Shown one piece after another: positions 9,464 to 46,734 of a DNA stretch of 64,000 nt. This DNA comes from Thermacetogenium phaeum DSM 12270 (GTDB lineage: Bacteria > Bacillota > DSM-12270 > Thermacetogeniales > Thermacetogeniaceae), in NCBI RefSeq assembly GCF_000305935.1, contig NC_018870.1, forward strand, positions 389,942-453,941, read 5' to 3'. Under the pieces are notes generated by a model. It did no database searches, had not been told where the DNA came from, and saw nothing but the letters and a program-made list of their open reading frames with translations. The first letter of the stretch is position 1. Each line of letters begins with the position of its first letter. The position numbers were made by a program, and so were the translations under genes.

Positions 9464-10685
9464 GGTCGGAGGTCTCATCGTTGCTGCCGGGAGGGGGGTG
9501 CGGATGGGCGCCCCCCTCAACAAGGTTTTCCTTCCCTTAGGCGGCCGTCCGCTGCTCCTGTACAGCGTCCGCCTTTTCGAAGAGTCCCCCTTCATCTCCA
9601 CCTACGTGGTGGTTGCCGCACCCGAGGAGGTGGGATTCTGCCGGACGCTACTTTCTTCCTGCAGCCCCGACAAACTGGCCGGGGTCGTCGCGGGAGGGGA
9701 GACCAGGCAGGAGTCGGTGGCCAACGGACTGCGGGCGCTTCCGGAGGACTGTTCCTTCGTGGTCGTCCACGACGGAGCGCGGCCGCTCCTCTCCAGGGAT
9801 GTGCTGGAGGGGGCGGTTCAACGCGCCTTTGACTGCGGCGCCGTTGTGGTCGGCGTGCCGGTGAAGGACACCGTCAAGGTGGTGGAGCAGGGGGGGGTGA
9901 CGGCTACCCCGCCGCGGTCCTCTTTGTGGATCGCCCAGACACCACAGGTCTTCCGCCGCTCCCTGCTCTCTCGGGCGCTGGAGGCCGCCGGGGAGGCCGG
10001 GTTTCAGGGAAGCGACGATTCCTCCCTGGTGGAGCGGCTGGGGGTGCGGGTGGAGATGTTCCGGGGTGGCTACGAGAACATCAAGATAACCACCCCCGGC
10101 GACCTGGTGATCGCCGAGTCTCTTCTGGCCGGGGCTAAGGGGGCGGCCGGGGAGGCGCAGGAGCGAGGGGAAGAGGGGAGGCGCATCGGGCTCGGTTACG
10201 ACGTCCACCCCTTCTGCGCGGGGCGGCCCCTGATCCTGGGTGGGGTGGAGATCCCCGGGGAGACCGGGCTGGCCGGGCATTCCGACGCCGACGTCCTCCT
10301 GCACGCCCTGATGGATGCTTGCCTCGGCGCGGCCGGGCTTCCCGACATCGGCAGCCAGTTTCCCCCCGGGGAACCCCGCTGGAAAGATGCTTCCAGCCTG
10401 GCCCTGCTCGCCGTCGTCGCCGGGCTCCTCGATGAAGCAGGCTACAGGGTGGCTCAGGTCGACCTGGTGGTGGCGGCGGAAAGGCCGCGGCTCGGCCGCT
10501 ACCTGGAGGGGATGAAGGAGCGGATCGCCGCGGTATTGGGTATACCCCGCACGGCGGTCGGCCTCAAAGCGACGACGACCGAAGGTTTGGGCTTCGTAGG
10601 AAGGGGGGAGGGGATTGCCGCCTGGGCAGTGGCCACCGTGATGCCAAAGAAAATCCGCCCTCCCTCGCCAGGAGGGCGGGGTTAG
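9456..10685 (+). CDS. ispDF: bifunctional IspD-IspF isoprenoid enzyme
   Basis: Fusion of MEP cytidylyltransferase (IspD, residues 1 to about 225) and MECDP synthase (IspF, about 240-393) of the non-mevalonate isoprenoid pathway. IspD shows GGLIVAAGRGVRMG and VVVHDGARPLL; IspF shows the metal-binding GYDVHPF and GHSDADVLLHA and the closing GRGEGIAAWAV. Residues 394-409 (PKKIRPPSPGGRG) are not family sequence: they are encoded by the hairpin that serves as minus-strand terminator for the convergent small gene. The TTG start is coupled to the preceding gene. Confidence 0.95.
   Translation: MDKVGGLIVAAGRGVRMGAPLNKVFLPLGGRPLLLYSVRLFEESPFISTYVVVAAPEEVGFCRTLLSSCSPDKLAGVVAGGETRQESVANGLRALPEDCSFVVVHDGARPLLSRDVLEGAVQRAFDCGAVVVGVPVKDTVKVVEQGGVTATPPRSSLWIAQTPQVFRRSLLSRALEAAGEAGFQGSDDSSLVERLGVRVEMFRGGYENIKITTPGDLVIAESLLAGAKGAAGEAQERGEEGRRIGLGYDVHPFCAGRPLILGGVEIPGETGLAGHSDADVLLHALMDACLGAAGLPDIGSQFPPGEPRWKDASSLALLAVVAGLLDEAGYRVAQVDLVVAAERPRLGRYLEGMKERIAAVLGIPRTAVGLKATTTEGLGFVGRGEGIAAWAVATVMPKKIRPPSPGGRG
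10651..10679 (-). terminator. minus-strand terminator overlapping the ispDF 3' end
   Basis: CCGCCCTCC (10655-10663) and GGAGGGCGG (10671-10679) pair across 7 nt. On the minus strand the stem is followed by ATTTTCTTT, fitting termination of the 36-codon gene at 10708-10818. Confidence 0.7.
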
Positions 10686-10707: not shown

Positions 10708-10818
10708 TTACTTAACCCTGAAGATGACGAATACGTAGTAGAGAAGACCGGCGAGGACGATGAAGAGAATGCCCAGCGTTCCCCAGAGGGCGGCCTGGCC
10801 GATAAGCGCTTCACCCAT
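10708..10818 (-). CDS. 36-residue single-span membrane protein under sigma-54 control
   Basis: Short gene reading MGEALIGQAALWGTLGILFI and then VLAGLLYYVFVIFRVK: a polar amino end, one hydrophobic span of about 24 residues and a basic RVK end, so probably inserted with the C-terminus inside. AAGGGGG stands 7 nt before the ATG, a consensus sigma-54 promoter starts about 33 bp upstream, and a hairpin terminator follows the stop, so this is a complete transcription unit. It resembles small accessory subunits of membrane transporters in size, but no transporter adjoins. The next gene upstream encodes a PspF-like activator beside pspA. Function unknown; a membrane-stress effector is my inference. 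Confidence 0.8.
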   Translation of the reverse strand: MGEALIGQAALWGTLGILFIVLAGLLYYVFVIFRVK

Positions 10819-10850: not shown

Positions 10851-10865
10851 GCAAAAATCGTGCCA
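10851..10865 (-). promoter_or_regulatory. sigma-54 promoter for the 36-residue membrane protein
   Basis: Read on the minus strand, CTGGCACGATTTTTGCGA: TGGCAC (10865-10860), 5-bp spacer, TTGC (10854-10851). The core is identical to the promoter at 40571. Expected transcription start is near 10840, about 20 nt before the ATG. Confidence 0.88.
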
Positions 10866-10941
10866 GTAATCATCTGAAACTCTGCAGAAGGGGATGTAAA
10901 ACCAGAAAAAGGGTGTGCCGGGGGGTGAAGCAGAGGCAGGC

Positions 10942-10979
10942 GTTTCGTAGTGAAACATCCTTGTGTTACGTTCTGAAAC
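10942..10979. promoter_or_regulatory. tandem palindromes, probable sigma-54 activator binding sites
   Basis: GTTTCGTAGTGAAAC (10942-10956) and GTTACGTTCTGAAAC (10965-10979) agree at 12 of 15 positions. Their centres are 23 bp apart, about two helical turns, and they lie about 80-115 bp upstream of the minus-strand sigma-54 promoter. This is the classic geometry of a paired enhancer site. I did not find the motif upstream of the other three sigma-54 promoters. Confidence 0.65.
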
Positions 10980-11044: not shown

Positions 11045-12058
11045 TTATTGGTGCTCTCCGCGTTGGAGTTTTTTCAGCCGGCGCCAGAGGGTGGTTCTGC
11101 TGATCCCCAGGAGGGCGGCGGCCTTTTTCTTATTCCCTTTGGCGGCGATCAGAGCCTCTCTGATGGCCTCCTCCTCCAGGCGGGAGATCCTCCGCTGTCC
11201 CGGGGTGACGTCCGGCTGGCCCTGTCTGACCGGTTCCGTCGGGCGCCATTCCGAAGAGGTGTAGAGGGATTCCGCCACCAGTTCCGCAGGTATGTATTCC
11301 CCGTCGCTGAGGATGACCAGGCGCTCCATAATGTTCTTCAGTTCTCTGATGTTCCCCGGCCAGTCGTGGGCAGCTAAGAGCTCCATTCCCCGCCGTTCTA
11401 CGCCTTTGATGTTCTTGCCGAACTTTCTATTGAAGAGGTGGAGAAAGTGGTCAACCAGCACCGGGATGTCCTCGCGCCGCTCCCTGAGTGAAGGGATGAC
11501 CAGCGTCAGCACGTTGATGCGGTAAAAGAGATCCGCCCGGAAGAGTTTTTCCGCAACCATTTTGTGCAGATTGCGGTTGGTGGCGGCGATTACCCGGACG
11601 TCGATCCTGATCACGCGGTTGTCCCCCAGGCGCATGATTTCATATTCCTGGAGCACCCGCAGCAGCCTCGTCTGCAGCTTGTCGGACATTTCGCTGATCT
11701 CGTCGAGGAAGATGGTGCCCCCGTCCGCCGCTTCGAAAAGCCCTCTTTTCCCCCCTTTTTTGGCGCCGGTAAAGGCTCCCTCGGCGTAGCCGAAGAGCTC
11801 GCTTTCCAGAAGGCTTTCCGGCATGGCGGCGCAGTTGACGGCGATGAAGGGGCCGTTTTTCCGGGAGCTGACGTTGTGGATGGCGTGGGCGAAGAATTCC
11901 TTTCCCGTGCCCGTTTCCCCGTAAATAAGGACGGTTGCGTCCACCTTCCCGAAGCGCTTCGCCTTCTCGATGGCGTCCTTGATCTTTTCGCTTTCCCCCA
12001 GGATGTCGCTGAAGTCATACTTGGCCAGATGGCCGCGGGCGCGCAGCCTCTTGCGCAT
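11045..12058 (-). CDS. stand-alone sigma-54 activator lacking a sensor domain (PspF-like)
   Basis: 337-residue enhancer-binding protein made only of an AAA+ domain and a Fis helix-turn-helix. Walker A GETGTGKE is at 47-54, the GAFTGA sigma-54 loop at 94-99, Walker B FLDEIS follows, and the HTH KKAAALLGISRTTLWRRL lies at the C-terminus. Only about 20 residues precede the core, as in enteric PspF, which is held inactive by PspA. It lies downstream of pspA-pspAA on the same strand and upstream of a small membrane-protein gene with a sigma-54 promoter. ATG preceded by AAGGGGGTG. The residue Trp56 used by E. coli PspF to bind PspA is not evident. PspA control is inferred. Confidence 0.92.
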   Translation of the reverse strand: MRKRLRARGHLAKYDFSDILGESEKIKDAIEKAKRFGKVDATVLIYGETGTGKEFFAHAIHNVSSRKNGPFIAVNCAAMPESLLESELFGYAEGAFTGAKKGGKRGLFEAADGGTIFLDEISEMSDKLQTRLLRVLQEYEIMRLGDNRVIRIDVRVIAATNRNLHKMVAEKLFRADLFYRINVLTLVIPSLRERREDIPVLVDHFLHLFNRKFGKNIKGVERRGMELLAAHDWPGNIRELKNIMERLVILSDGEYIPAELVAESLYTSSEWRPTEPVRQGQPDVTPGQRRISRLEEEAIREALIAAKGNKKKAAALLGISRTTLWRRLKKLQRGEHQ

Positions 12059-12100: not shown

Positions 12101-12136
12101 TAAAAAAAAGCCGCCGGGATGGTCGTCCTTGGCGGC
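12101..12136 (-). terminator. intrinsic terminator between pspAA and the activator gene
   Basis: On the minus strand GCCGCC and GGCGGC pair around a 15-nt loop, followed by TTTTTTTTA. It lies 43 bp before the activator start, leaving little room for a separate promoter. Confidence 0.8.
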
Positions 12137-12222: not shown

Positions 12223-12501
12223 TCAGCGCAGGTTGCGGGGATATCCGGCGAAGAGCTCTCTTGCTTCCTCCAGGGTGGTGTCGGGGGCAGGGATAACCAG
12301 GTCGGATTCTACGAGTTCATCGTCGGGGATCCTTTTGCCCCTGGTCTGCACCAATTCCACCACCTGCCGCAGGCGCTCCGCAAACTGCTGCTCGTCCCCG
12401 GCGCCGACGGCGTCGAGGAGGGAGTCGTCCATGGCGTCCAGCTCCGCCAGGGCGTTTCCGTCCAGCCGGTACTGCCCTTCTGTCAGAACCCTGATGATCA
12501 T
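12223..12501 (-). CDS. pspAA: PspA-associated protein PspAA
   Basis: 92 residues starting MIIRVLTEGQYRLDGNALAELDAMDD, the compact PspAA domain described as a frequent partner of PspA/IM30 proteins. Acidic, no membrane segment. Its ATG overlaps the pspA stop by 4 bp (ATGA), so translation is coupled. It probably binds PspA and tunes the membrane-stress response; no enzyme activity is known for the family. Confidence 0.82.
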   Translation of the reverse strand: MIIRVLTEGQYRLDGNALAELDAMDDSLLDAVGAGDEQQFAERLRQVVELVQTRGKRIPDDELVESDLVIPAPDTTLEEARELFAGYPRNLR

Positions 12502-13199
12502 CCCTCACTCACTTCCTTCTTCAGGCGGGAGAGCTCGTCTTCGACGCGGCCCGCCGCCTGCATTTTCTTGAGTTCGGCTTCAACGGGGTCCTTCTCTCCC
12601 AGCGGCTCTTCCAGCACCCCGCTGGCGATCAGCTCATCGATGGCGGAGGCCCGGGCCTGCATTTCTTCGGTCCTCCGTTCCGCTCGCTCAATGGCCATGC
12701 CGACGTCGGCCAGCTCCTCCGAGAGGCCGGTCATGGCTTCGCCGATCTTCACCTGGGCCTCGGAGGCGGAATAACGGGCCTTTATGACCTCCTTCTTGGT
12801 GCGGAAGGCCTCTACCTTCGCCCGCAGGCGGTTCTCCACCTGGGTGAGCTTTTCCTGTTCCTTGTTGAGGTCTGCGACCTGTTGCTCGAGATCCTGGATC
12901 TGCTGCTCGATCTGTACCTTGCGCTCCAGGGCCAGCCGGGCGAGGTCTTCCCGCCCCTGCCGCAGGGCCTCCTTCGCCTGCCCATCGAGCTTGTTGAGGT
13001 CACTTTTAAGCTTGACTACCTGCAGTTCCAGCCTTTTCTTGGAAGCGGCGACATTGGTGATGTTCCGCCTCACCTTCTGCAGCAGCTCGACCTGTTTTTC
13101 GTAGGAGTAATCCAGGGTTTCGTGGGGATTTTCCATCTGGTCGAGCACTTTGTTGATCTTGGCCTTGAAAACCGTCGATATGCGCGCCAAAAGTCCCAT
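12498..13199 (-). CDS. pspA: phage-shock protein A (PspA/IM30 family)
   Basis: 233 residues of nearly continuous coiled coil. It starts MGLLARISTVFKAKINKVLDQMENP, the amphipathic helix that binds stressed membranes, followed by the family sequence ETLDYSYEKQVELLQKVRRNI. PspA oligomers repair membranes; in proteobacteria they also repress PspF. Ribosome site AAAGGAG 8 nt upstream. Neighbours pspAB and htpX upstream and pspAA downstream are the reported PspA partners. Most likely cotranscribed from the promoter at 14771. Confidence 0.95.
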   Translation of the reverse strand: MGLLARISTVFKAKINKVLDQMENPHETLDYSYEKQVELLQKVRRNITNVAASKKRLELQVVKLKSDLNKLDGQAKEALRQGREDLARLALERKVQIEQQIQDLEQQVADLNKEQEKLTQVENRLRAKVEAFRTKKEVIKARYSASEAQVKIGEAMTGLSEELADVGMAIERAERRTEEMQARASAIDELIASGVLEEPLGEKDPVEAELKKMQAAGRVEDELSRLKKEVSEG

Positions 13200-13252: not shown

Positions 13253-13819
13253 CTATACCGGGCAGTTGCGGATGGGGTACCAGAAGCTGACATCCTTTTC
13301 CCAGGGGAGTTCTTTTTCGAGCAGGGTGAAGAGCCGCAGTTCGGTGTTGTGGTCCCGGCCCTCTTTGCCGGTGGGAAGGTAGGGATAGAAGGAACCCCGC
13401 TTGTAGTTGTAGATGATGTAAAGCTTTTCACCTCCAGGCCCTTTAAAGGGGAAGACCGCCGCCAGGAGCTGGGTGTCGTAGCCGTTATCAGCAAGGGTTT
13501 GGGCGGCCATGTGCACCAGGGCCACCAGGTCGTCCCAGTCCGGGTCTTCGAAGAGCAGCCACCGGTAGCGGTATTCGTCGTCGCGGATCTCCATTCTGGT
13601 CTTAGTCTCCTTCACCGCCAGGTGCAGGAGCTCTTTCAGCTCCTCAGCCGCCGACCGGAAGTCGAGGCTTGTGGCGGGCTTCAGGGTCAGCCCGCACCTG
13701 CCGGCCGGTGTCCAGCCCAGCTCGGCGAAGGGGACGGCGGCGGTGGAGAGGGCGAACAGCTTTTCGAGCCGCGCCTTCGGCGGCCTGCTCTTCCCGAAGA
13801 GGGCGTCCAGGAAACCCAT
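13253..13819 (-). CDS. pspAB: PspA-associated protein PspAB
   Basis: 188 residues beginning MGFLDALFGKSRPPKARLEKLFALSTAAV, the start typical of PspAB proteins that accompany PspA and HtpX. Soluble, alpha/beta, with conserved WLLFEDPDWDDLVALVHMAA and an FYPYLP segment. The gene starts 1 bp after the htpX stop and lies 53 bp before pspA. Biochemical function is not established; a role in PspA signalling is inferred from association. Confidence 0.82.
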   Translation of the reverse strand: MGFLDALFGKSRPPKARLEKLFALSTAAVPFAELGWTPAGRCGLTLKPATSLDFRSAAEELKELLHLAVKETKTRMEIRDDEYRYRWLLFEDPDWDDLVALVHMAAQTLADNGYDTQLLAAVFPFKGPGGEKLYIIYNYKRGSFYPYLPTGKEGRDHNTELRLFTLLEKELPWEKDVSFWYPIRNCPV

Positions 13820-13820
13820 C

Positions 13821-14711
13821 TTATCCCCTCATCTGCCGTTCCAGTTCCTGCAGGTAGGCGATGCGCCGCTCCAGGGAGGGGTGGGTGGAGAACAGTTCGG
13901 CGAAGGATTCCCCTCTCAGGGCGGGGATGATGAAGAAGGCGTTCATGCCCTCCGCCTGGCGCAGGTCGCGCTCCGGGAAGCGCTGCATGATGCCGCTGAT
14001 CTTCATGAGGGCGCTGGAGAGCAGCCCCGGCGAACCGGTCAGAAAGGCCGCCCCCCGGTCGGCCGCGAACTCCCGGTAGCGGGAGAGCGCCCGGATCAGG
14101 AAGAAGCTGATCAGCCAGACCAGAAGAGAGACGAGGTAGACGAGCATCGCCCCGCCGCGGTCCTCCCGGTCGCGGTCGAGGAAGCCGCCGTAGAAGAAGA
14201 AGTTCTGGACGATGAAGGAGGCCACGGTTGCGAAGAAGCTGGCGATGGTCATCACCGCCACGTCTCTGTTTTTGATGTGGCTCATTTCGTGGGCCAGCAC
14301 GGCTTCGACCTCCGGCTCGGTTAGGCGCTGCATGAGCCCCGCAGTTACCGCCACAACGGCGTTGCGGGGGCTCCTCCCGGTGGCGAAGGCATTGGGTATG
14401 GAGGTGGGCATGACTGCCACTCGCGGTTTGGGGACGTCGGCGAGCACCGACAGGCGCTCCACCATGGCGTGCAGCTGCGGCGCCTCCTGCGGGGAGACCT
14501 CTCTGGCTCCCGTGCTCAGGAGCACCAGCCGGTCGGAAAAGTAGTACTGGATGAAGAGCATGATCCCGACGAAGAAGACGATGCCGGTGAAGCCGATGCC
14601 GGCGTACCAGAGGACAAGGCCGAAGAAGAGGTACAGAGCCGCCAGCAGGAACATGGTGAAGATCATCCTGGCAGTCAAACCGTAGTCTACGGGGAAGCGC
14701 TCTCTTTTCAT
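13821..14711 (-). CDS. htpX: membrane zinc metalloprotease HtpX
   Basis: 296-residue M48-family protease that degrades damaged membrane proteins. Two membrane segments near residues 12-55, then the zinc site HEMSH in EAVLAHEMSHIKNRDVAVMT near 140, two further hydrophobic segments, and the third-ligand region ALSRYREFAADRGAAFLTG. First gene of the psp operon, behind AAAGGAGAG and the promoter at 14771. Length and order of segments are normal. Confidence 0.95.
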   Translation of the reverse strand: MKRERFPVDYGLTARMIFTMFLLAALYLFFGLVLWYAGIGFTGIVFFVGIMLFIQYYFSDRLVLLSTGAREVSPQEAPQLHAMVERLSVLADVPKPRVAVMPTSIPNAFATGRSPRNAVVAVTAGLMQRLTEPEVEAVLAHEMSHIKNRDVAVMTIASFFATVASFIVQNFFFYGGFLDRDREDRGGAMLVYLVSLLVWLISFFLIRALSRYREFAADRGAAFLTGSPGLLSSALMKISGIMQRFPERDLRQAEGMNAFFIIPALRGESFAELFSTHPSLERRIAYLQELERQMRG

Positions 14712-40570: not shown

Positions 40571-40585
40571 TGGCACGATTTTTGC
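40571..40585 (+). promoter_or_regulatory. sigma-54 promoter of the aldehyde oxidoreductase operon
   Basis: CTGGCACGATTTTTGCGA: TGGCAC (40571-40576), 5-bp spacer, TTGC (40582-40585). Same core as the promoter at 10851. An imperfect palindrome GTTATTGC-ATT-GCGATAAC ends directly upstream at 40570. The leader to the first gene is about 215 nt and contains two extra AGGAGG-like sites and very short reading frames. 40259-40421 holds nothing else. Confidence 0.88.
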
Positions 40586-46719: not shown

Positions 46720-46734
46720 TGGCACGTAATTTGC
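46720..46734 (+). promoter_or_regulatory. sigma-54 promoter of the alcohol dehydrogenase gene
   Basis: TTGGCACGTAATTTGCGAA: TGGCAC (46720-46725), 5-bp spacer, TTGC (46731-46734). Direct repeats ACGTTTATT and ACGTTATTT at 46602-46619, about 100 bp upstream, may be activator sites. Leader about 115 nt. Confidence 0.88.

Follow-up and report, generated by a model that had tools for sequence, protein, structure and literature searches.

A Candidate Sigma-54 Enhancer Pair Next to a Sensor-less PrpR-Lineage Activator and a Small Membrane-Peptide Gene in Thermacetogenium phaeum

Introduction

Two 15-bp palindromes lie upstream of a minus-strand sigma-54 promoter in the 64-kb stretch of the Thermacetogenium phaeum genome that we analyzed (the window), and the locus raises the question of whether these palindromes are the enhancer of that promoter, which protein would bind them, and which gene they would serve. 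The initial annotation of this DNA described an enhancer layout and left out the lineage of the activator, the target gene, and the psp neighborhood. The new elements are a sensor-less activator of the PrpR lineage, a single small membrane-peptide target, and a link to the psp locus. From the evidence below, we consider it highly probable that the two palindromes form the upstream activating sequence (UAS) of the sigma-54 activator (bEBP) encoded at 11045-12058 and serve the promoter at 10851-10865 (Table 1). For a thermophile with a syntrophic way of life, the locus would thus provide a concrete sigma-54 circuit with one target, composed of a sensor-less PrpR-lineage activator, a defined enhancer, and a peptide family, and it makes a case for asking if sensor-less activators repeatedly get recruited beside pspA.

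Table 1. Features of the locus, with positions in the window
Feature	Position	Strand	Remarks
Putative promoter-proximal enhancer site GTTTCGTAGTGAAAC (GTTTC-N5-GAAAC)	10942..10956	.	center at -84 bp from the -24 box; site type recurs in orthologous loci
Putative promoter-distal enhancer site GTTACGTTCTGAAAC	10965..10979	.	center at -107 bp from the -24 box; pair unique in the genome
Additional single half-site TGAAAC adjoining the sigma-54 promoter	10875..10880	.	weaker evidence
Sigma-54 promoter TGGCAC-N5-TTGC (TGGCACGATTTTTGC)	10851..10865	minus	exact match; 0-3 mismatches in orthologues; one sigma-54 factor encoded in the genome
36-codon gene for a predicted single-span membrane peptide, MGEALIGQAALWGTLGILFIVLAGLLYYVFVIFRVK	10708..10818	minus	strong Shine-Dalgarno GGGGGGA; conserved 35-36 aa family; codon-position bias; hydropathy peak 2.73
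Intrinsic terminator-like hairpin behind the peptide gene	10655..10679	minus	
Sensor-less sigma-54 activator (bEBP) of the PrpR lineage; AAA+ with GAFTGA and Fis-type HTH (helix SRTTLWRRLKK)	11045..12058	minus	Pfam, NCBIfam, tree, HTH comparison, motif alignment
Hairpin with T8 between pspAA and the activator gene, candidate terminator or attenuator	12102..12136	minus	fold z-score -3.2; comparable hairpins at the orthologous loci of g7 and g8
pspAA	12223..12501	minus	PF22743
pspA	12498..13199	minus	PF04012
pspAB	13253..13819	minus	PF22742
htpX	13821..14711	minus	

Paired Sites and Their Conservation

Both palindromes are present where the initial annotation had placed them and have 12 of their 15 bases in common, and their centers (10949 and 10972) are separated by 23 bp, as it had claimed, or ∼2.2 helical turns. 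The arms of GTTTCGTAGTGAAAC are perfect, with 5 bp in each and 5 bp between them, while those of GTTACGTTCTGAAAC carry one mismatch. A distance of 80-115 bp to the promoter had also been given, and this figure is right because the centers lie at -84 and -107 and the sites together span -77 to -114 relative to the first T of the promoter. The pair therefore falls within the range expected of a UAS, ∼70-250 bp ahead of a -24/-12 promoter, and the promoter is exact.

How readily would such sites arise by accident? With one mismatch allowed, GTTTC-N5-GAAAC was seen 3 times in the window against 2.3 expected, so that one such palindrome is unremarkable in 64 kb, and this is what speaks for a fortuitous likeness between two sites that have no function. 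The pair, however, is unique: GTTNC-N5-GNAAC occurs twice within 7-9 bp at exactly one place in the 2.94-Mb T. phaeum genome (2,939,057 bp in a single contig), where the reversed-pattern control gives no occurrence. We also compared the regions between activator and promoter in 13 genomes of the Thermacetogeniaceae and counted 6-mers in one genome per genus. The half-site TGAAAC/GTTTCA is the most enriched 6-mer of these orthologous regions (13 seen versus 0.86 expected). GTTNC-N4/5-GNAAC is present 6 times, versus 0.03 in shuffles, and none of 2000 shuffles reaches 6. A chance origin of the paired sites is, on these counts, extremely improbable.

The layout with two sites is also found in four relatives (G016, G007, G011, and G005), where the centers lie at -76 to -80 and -97 to -102; in the last three, one of the two sites carries one mismatch. 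The 23-bp spacing in T. phaeum is slightly unlike the ∼21 bp of these relatives. The rest of the spacer between activator and promoter has diverged, and the spacing and orientation of the sites vary between genera: the half-sites are arranged as direct repeats instead of palindromes in the g7 orthologues, and the sites lie further upstream in the g5 orthologues. Palindromy is therefore not essential, and the conserved element is the half-site and its clustering rather than the exact palindrome.

The sigma-54 enhancer layout proposed in the initial annotation is thus borne out: the bEBP gene adjoins the sites, all three elements (sites, exact promoter, and bEBP gene) fall within 1.2 kb, and in every genus that has retained the activator, sites and promoter recur at the orthologous locus together with the cognate bEBP. 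We regard the enhancer reading of the paired sites as well supported computationally.

Lineage of the Activator

In a maximum-likelihood tree, the 13 orthologues of the activator form a 100/100 clade that is joined with Escherichia coli PrpR at 98/89, a grouping that comes from one tree in which few PrpR sequences were sampled; PspF, a long branch, does not group with them. The recognition helix SRTTLWRRLKK is nearly identical to that of E. coli PrpR (SRTTFWRRLKS) and unlike those of E. coli PspF and of the ten other bEBPs of T. phaeum, and the AAA+ domain is 50% identical to that of PrpR versus 43% to that of PspF. The half-sites agree as well. TGAAAC/GTTTCA half-sites upstream of a TGGCAC-N5-TTGC promoter are common to the T. 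phaeum locus and to the PrpR/prpBCDE systems of E. coli and Salmonella; the E. coli prpR-prpB intergenic region contains TGAAAC four times and GTTTCA and GTTGCA once each, and the enhancer consensus of Salmonella PrpR is CGTTTCATGAAACG (review, PMC4987338). Given the tree, the recognition helix, and the TGAAAC-type operator, we take the activator to be a relative of PrpR, which would have descended from a PrpR-type regulator with the architecture PrpR_N-PAS-AAA+-HTH.

The differences from PrpR are equally clear. The T. phaeum activator lacks PAS and the ligand-binding domain PrpR_N (PF06506, present in the G010 orthologue), and it scores 349.1 bits against the cutoff of 499.2 bits of the NCBIfam PrpR equivalog TIGR02329. 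Its sites are two spaced palindromes, unlike the half-site cluster of E. coli prp, and its target is a membrane peptide rather than propionate catabolism. From this comparison, operator recognition of the PrpR type seems to have been retained across phyla, even as the sensor and the target of the regulator changed. The sites of close relatives (TGTTNCA...TGNAACA) can also be written as TGT-N10/11-ACA and in this form resemble the TGT-N10-12-ACA enhancers of Clostridiales bEBPs of the NifA/FhlA-like class, as given in the main text of PMC6615313, but neither T. phaeum site has both the TGT and the ACA end, and the TGAAAC motif is absent from that main text.

Repressors too use paired palindromes, and with ten other bEBPs encoded in the genome, the palindromes could be operators of an unrelated repressor or other regulator while a different activator serves the sigma-54 promoter. 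Against this stand the match between the activator helix and that of PrpR, whose half-site is likewise TGAAAC, the different recognition helices of the other T. phaeum bEBPs, and the joint occurrence of sites, activator, and peptide in the genera carrying them. We hold such an arrangement to be very unlikely.

The shortness of the activator frame is found in just one of the 11 bEBPs of the T. phaeum genome, namely this one. Orthologues with at least 65% identity are encoded in 13 of 20 family genomes. Those of G010 and G004 (∼640 aa) have ∼300 extra N-terminal residues, which in G010 match PrpR_N and PAS, whereas the activators of T. phaeum and of genera g6, g7, and g8 begin just ahead of the AAA+ domain; the sensor was therefore probably lost, once or more, in T. 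phaeum and these three other genera, while the orthologues of one genus retain PrpR_N and PAS. We considered a gain of the sensor in g5 in place of losses elsewhere, which is less likely because PrpR itself has a sensor. Within the orthologue clade, the placement of T. phaeum has weak support (88/42), so that one loss and several losses are both compatible with the tree.

Two orthologous loci are irregular. In G009, the activator and the whole activator-peptide locus (L147, contig C113), which lies away from psp, are almost identical to those of G010, a member of another genus; given this near identity, the locus may stem from misbinning of the contig or from recent transfer, a caveat to the count of 13 genomes. 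In the draft genome G018 (L043, 4543-4724), the activator frame is broken ahead of the HTH, which is encoded further on, and this is a frameshift or an assembly error.

A Probable Membrane-Peptide Target

The peptide gene lies downstream of the promoter, with the bEBP gene on one flank and, on the other, the convergent plus-strand ispDF gene, which ends at 10685. Ten homologous peptides were aligned. Positions with W, G, L, F, and K are invariant, and nucleotide differences fall mostly at third and first codon positions; the open reading frame at 10708-10818 is therefore very probably a real gene. Its single hydrophobic stretch, with an acidic N-terminal part and a basic C-terminus, suggests that the encoded peptide spans the membrane once and has the C-terminus inside. 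It is found in 12 of the 13 genomes with an orthologue of the bEBP and in none of the seven genomes without one; in the single genome with activator and without peptide (G006), the contig stops right after the sigma-54 site. In a set of 398 genomes from the phylum, the peptide has strong matches within the family alone, and two weak partial matches outside it are probably due to chance. No family in Pfam or NCBIfam matches the small protein, and these membrane peptides of 35-36 aa are an undescribed family. The position of the T. phaeum peptide gene behind the membrane-stress genes htpX-pspAB-pspA-pspAA suggests a role in the envelope.

Sites, promoter, activator-peptide pairing, PrpR kinship, and absence of the sensor are direct results of the computation, and from them we infer all functional steps of the circuit, including DNA binding, looping, activation, and membrane insertion. 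Dimers of the bEBP would bind both palindromes through the Fis-type HTH, with TGAAAC/GTTTCA as the half-site, and the bound dimers would assemble an AAA+ hexamer. By looping of the DNA, the hexamer would contact sigma-54 polymerase at 10851-10865 and open the promoter through ATP hydrolysis, and the output would be the 36-residue membrane peptide, the sole evident target. Since the sensor is gone, control would have to come from the amount of activator that is made or from a partner acting in trans.

Control of the Activator

A candidate for such a partner is encoded nearby. At most orthologous loci, pspA-pspAA precede the gene of the activator, either directly or, in g5, with a gap of 1-2 kb in between, and a phage-shock circuit like that of PspF would be compatible with the enhancer reading, to which it would supply the input: PspA (with PspAA) would restrain the activator, and membrane stress would free it to turn on the peptide. 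The parallels with PspF and its UAS I/II at E. coli pspA are a sensor-less bEBP adjoining pspA, two sites in tandem ahead of a sigma-54 promoter, and a small membrane-protein target comparable to PspG; E. coli pspG is the orphan target of PspF (PMC9239133). The activator also shares the general PspF architecture, with AAA+ carrying GAFTGA and a Fis HTH and with no N-terminal sensor.

Other observations point away from PspF. The activator belongs to another bEBP lineage, with another recognition helix, and reaches 275.9 bits against the cutoff of 443.55 bits of the PspF equivalog TIGR02974. W56 of PspF is the patch contacted by PspA, and the aligned residue is K or R in 13 of 13 orthologues. 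By this cutoff, the tree, and the K/R at the W56 column, we rejected orthology with PspF. The T. phaeum sites have no sequence in common with UAS I/II, no sigma-54 site or palindrome was found before the psp genes within the window, and the activator gene lies downstream of pspA, whereas E. coli pspF is divergent from pspA. In G012, the interval between htpX and the gene of the activator (L148, 4612-4754) is cleanly devoid of pspAB-pspA-pspAA, yet the activator-peptide module and its sites are intact, and no PspA was found elsewhere in this genome (89% complete). Furthermore, the terminator-like hairpin at 12102-12136 parts pspAA from the activator gene. Control of the activator by PspA is therefore possible but unproven, and we judge a PspF-like circuit rather unlikely.

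The hairpin may act as a terminator or attenuator and argues against simple cotranscription of the activator with psp. A consensus terminator scan misses it on the minus strand because its loop exceeds the length that the scan permits. A hairpin with a T-tract between pspAA and the activator gene is also seen in L038, L041, L042, and L049.

Control by dosage would likewise be compatible with the enhancer reading. The sensor-less activator would be always active, its amount being set by weak translation starts and by read-through of the hairpin. In T. phaeum, g7, and g8, a hairpin with a T-tract precedes the activator gene. In several relatives, the in-frame codon that stands where a start is expected behind a strong Shine-Dalgarno sequence is ATT, GTA, or GTT, not ATG, and these starts might reflect deliberately weak translation. 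The T. phaeum gene, however, has a normal ATG start, most such relatives have a downstream ATG and their starts are predicted from sequence, and a search for a promoter at the activator gene identified none. We put dosage control forward tentatively, as a possibility a little short of even. A non-ATG codon occurs at the activator start in L038, L039, L041, L042, L049, L050, and L148.

In a further-reaching scenario, an activator of the PrpR type would have lost its ligand sensor next to pspA and then been placed under membrane-stress control by PspA. This would be an independent reinvention of the PspF arrangement in Firmicutes, and its output would be a membrane peptide of a new class. We consider this scenario unlikely.

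Search for a Wider Regulon

The initial annotation had offered the motif as a means of finding the rest of a regulon, and this expectation did not hold. Of 17 exact sigma-54 sites in the T. phaeum genome, only the promoter studied here has the palindrome pair nearby. Other half-sites near sigma-54 sites are isolated or of the GTTGCA type. Pattern searches, on which the genome-wide statistics rest, gave nothing above background beyond the cognate locus in T. phaeum and 20 family genomes. For the combined pattern of palindrome plus promoter, whose spacing limit the T. phaeum cognate site just exceeds, off-locus matches in the 20 family genomes are about as frequent as those of the reversed control. 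The two tests that had been named for the motif thus came apart, with conservation found in orthologous loci and enrichment not found near the other sigma-54 promoters. Because the pair is unique in the genome and absent near the other 16 sites, the enhancer pair and its activator look like a one-target circuit.

One match to the pair, in G061, was rejected as a related locus, as none of the locus proteins match there. A conserved palindrome, TGTTGCAATATGCAACA, lies upstream of a sigma-54-like site at another locus in two g7 genomes (L185 and L186, in G012 and G019); in G012, it adjoins a different bEBP and precedes a gene for a CooC-like ATPase, and it is probably the enhancer of another bEBP. 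We note three further exact sigma-54 sites on the plus strand of the window. The site at 1336-1350 precedes the gene for an FAD-binding oxidoreductase adjoining another bEBP (9-1115), that at 40571-40585 precedes genes for a 4Fe-4S protein and an aldehyde:ferredoxin oxidoreductase, and that at 46720-46734 precedes an iron-containing alcohol dehydrogenase gene.
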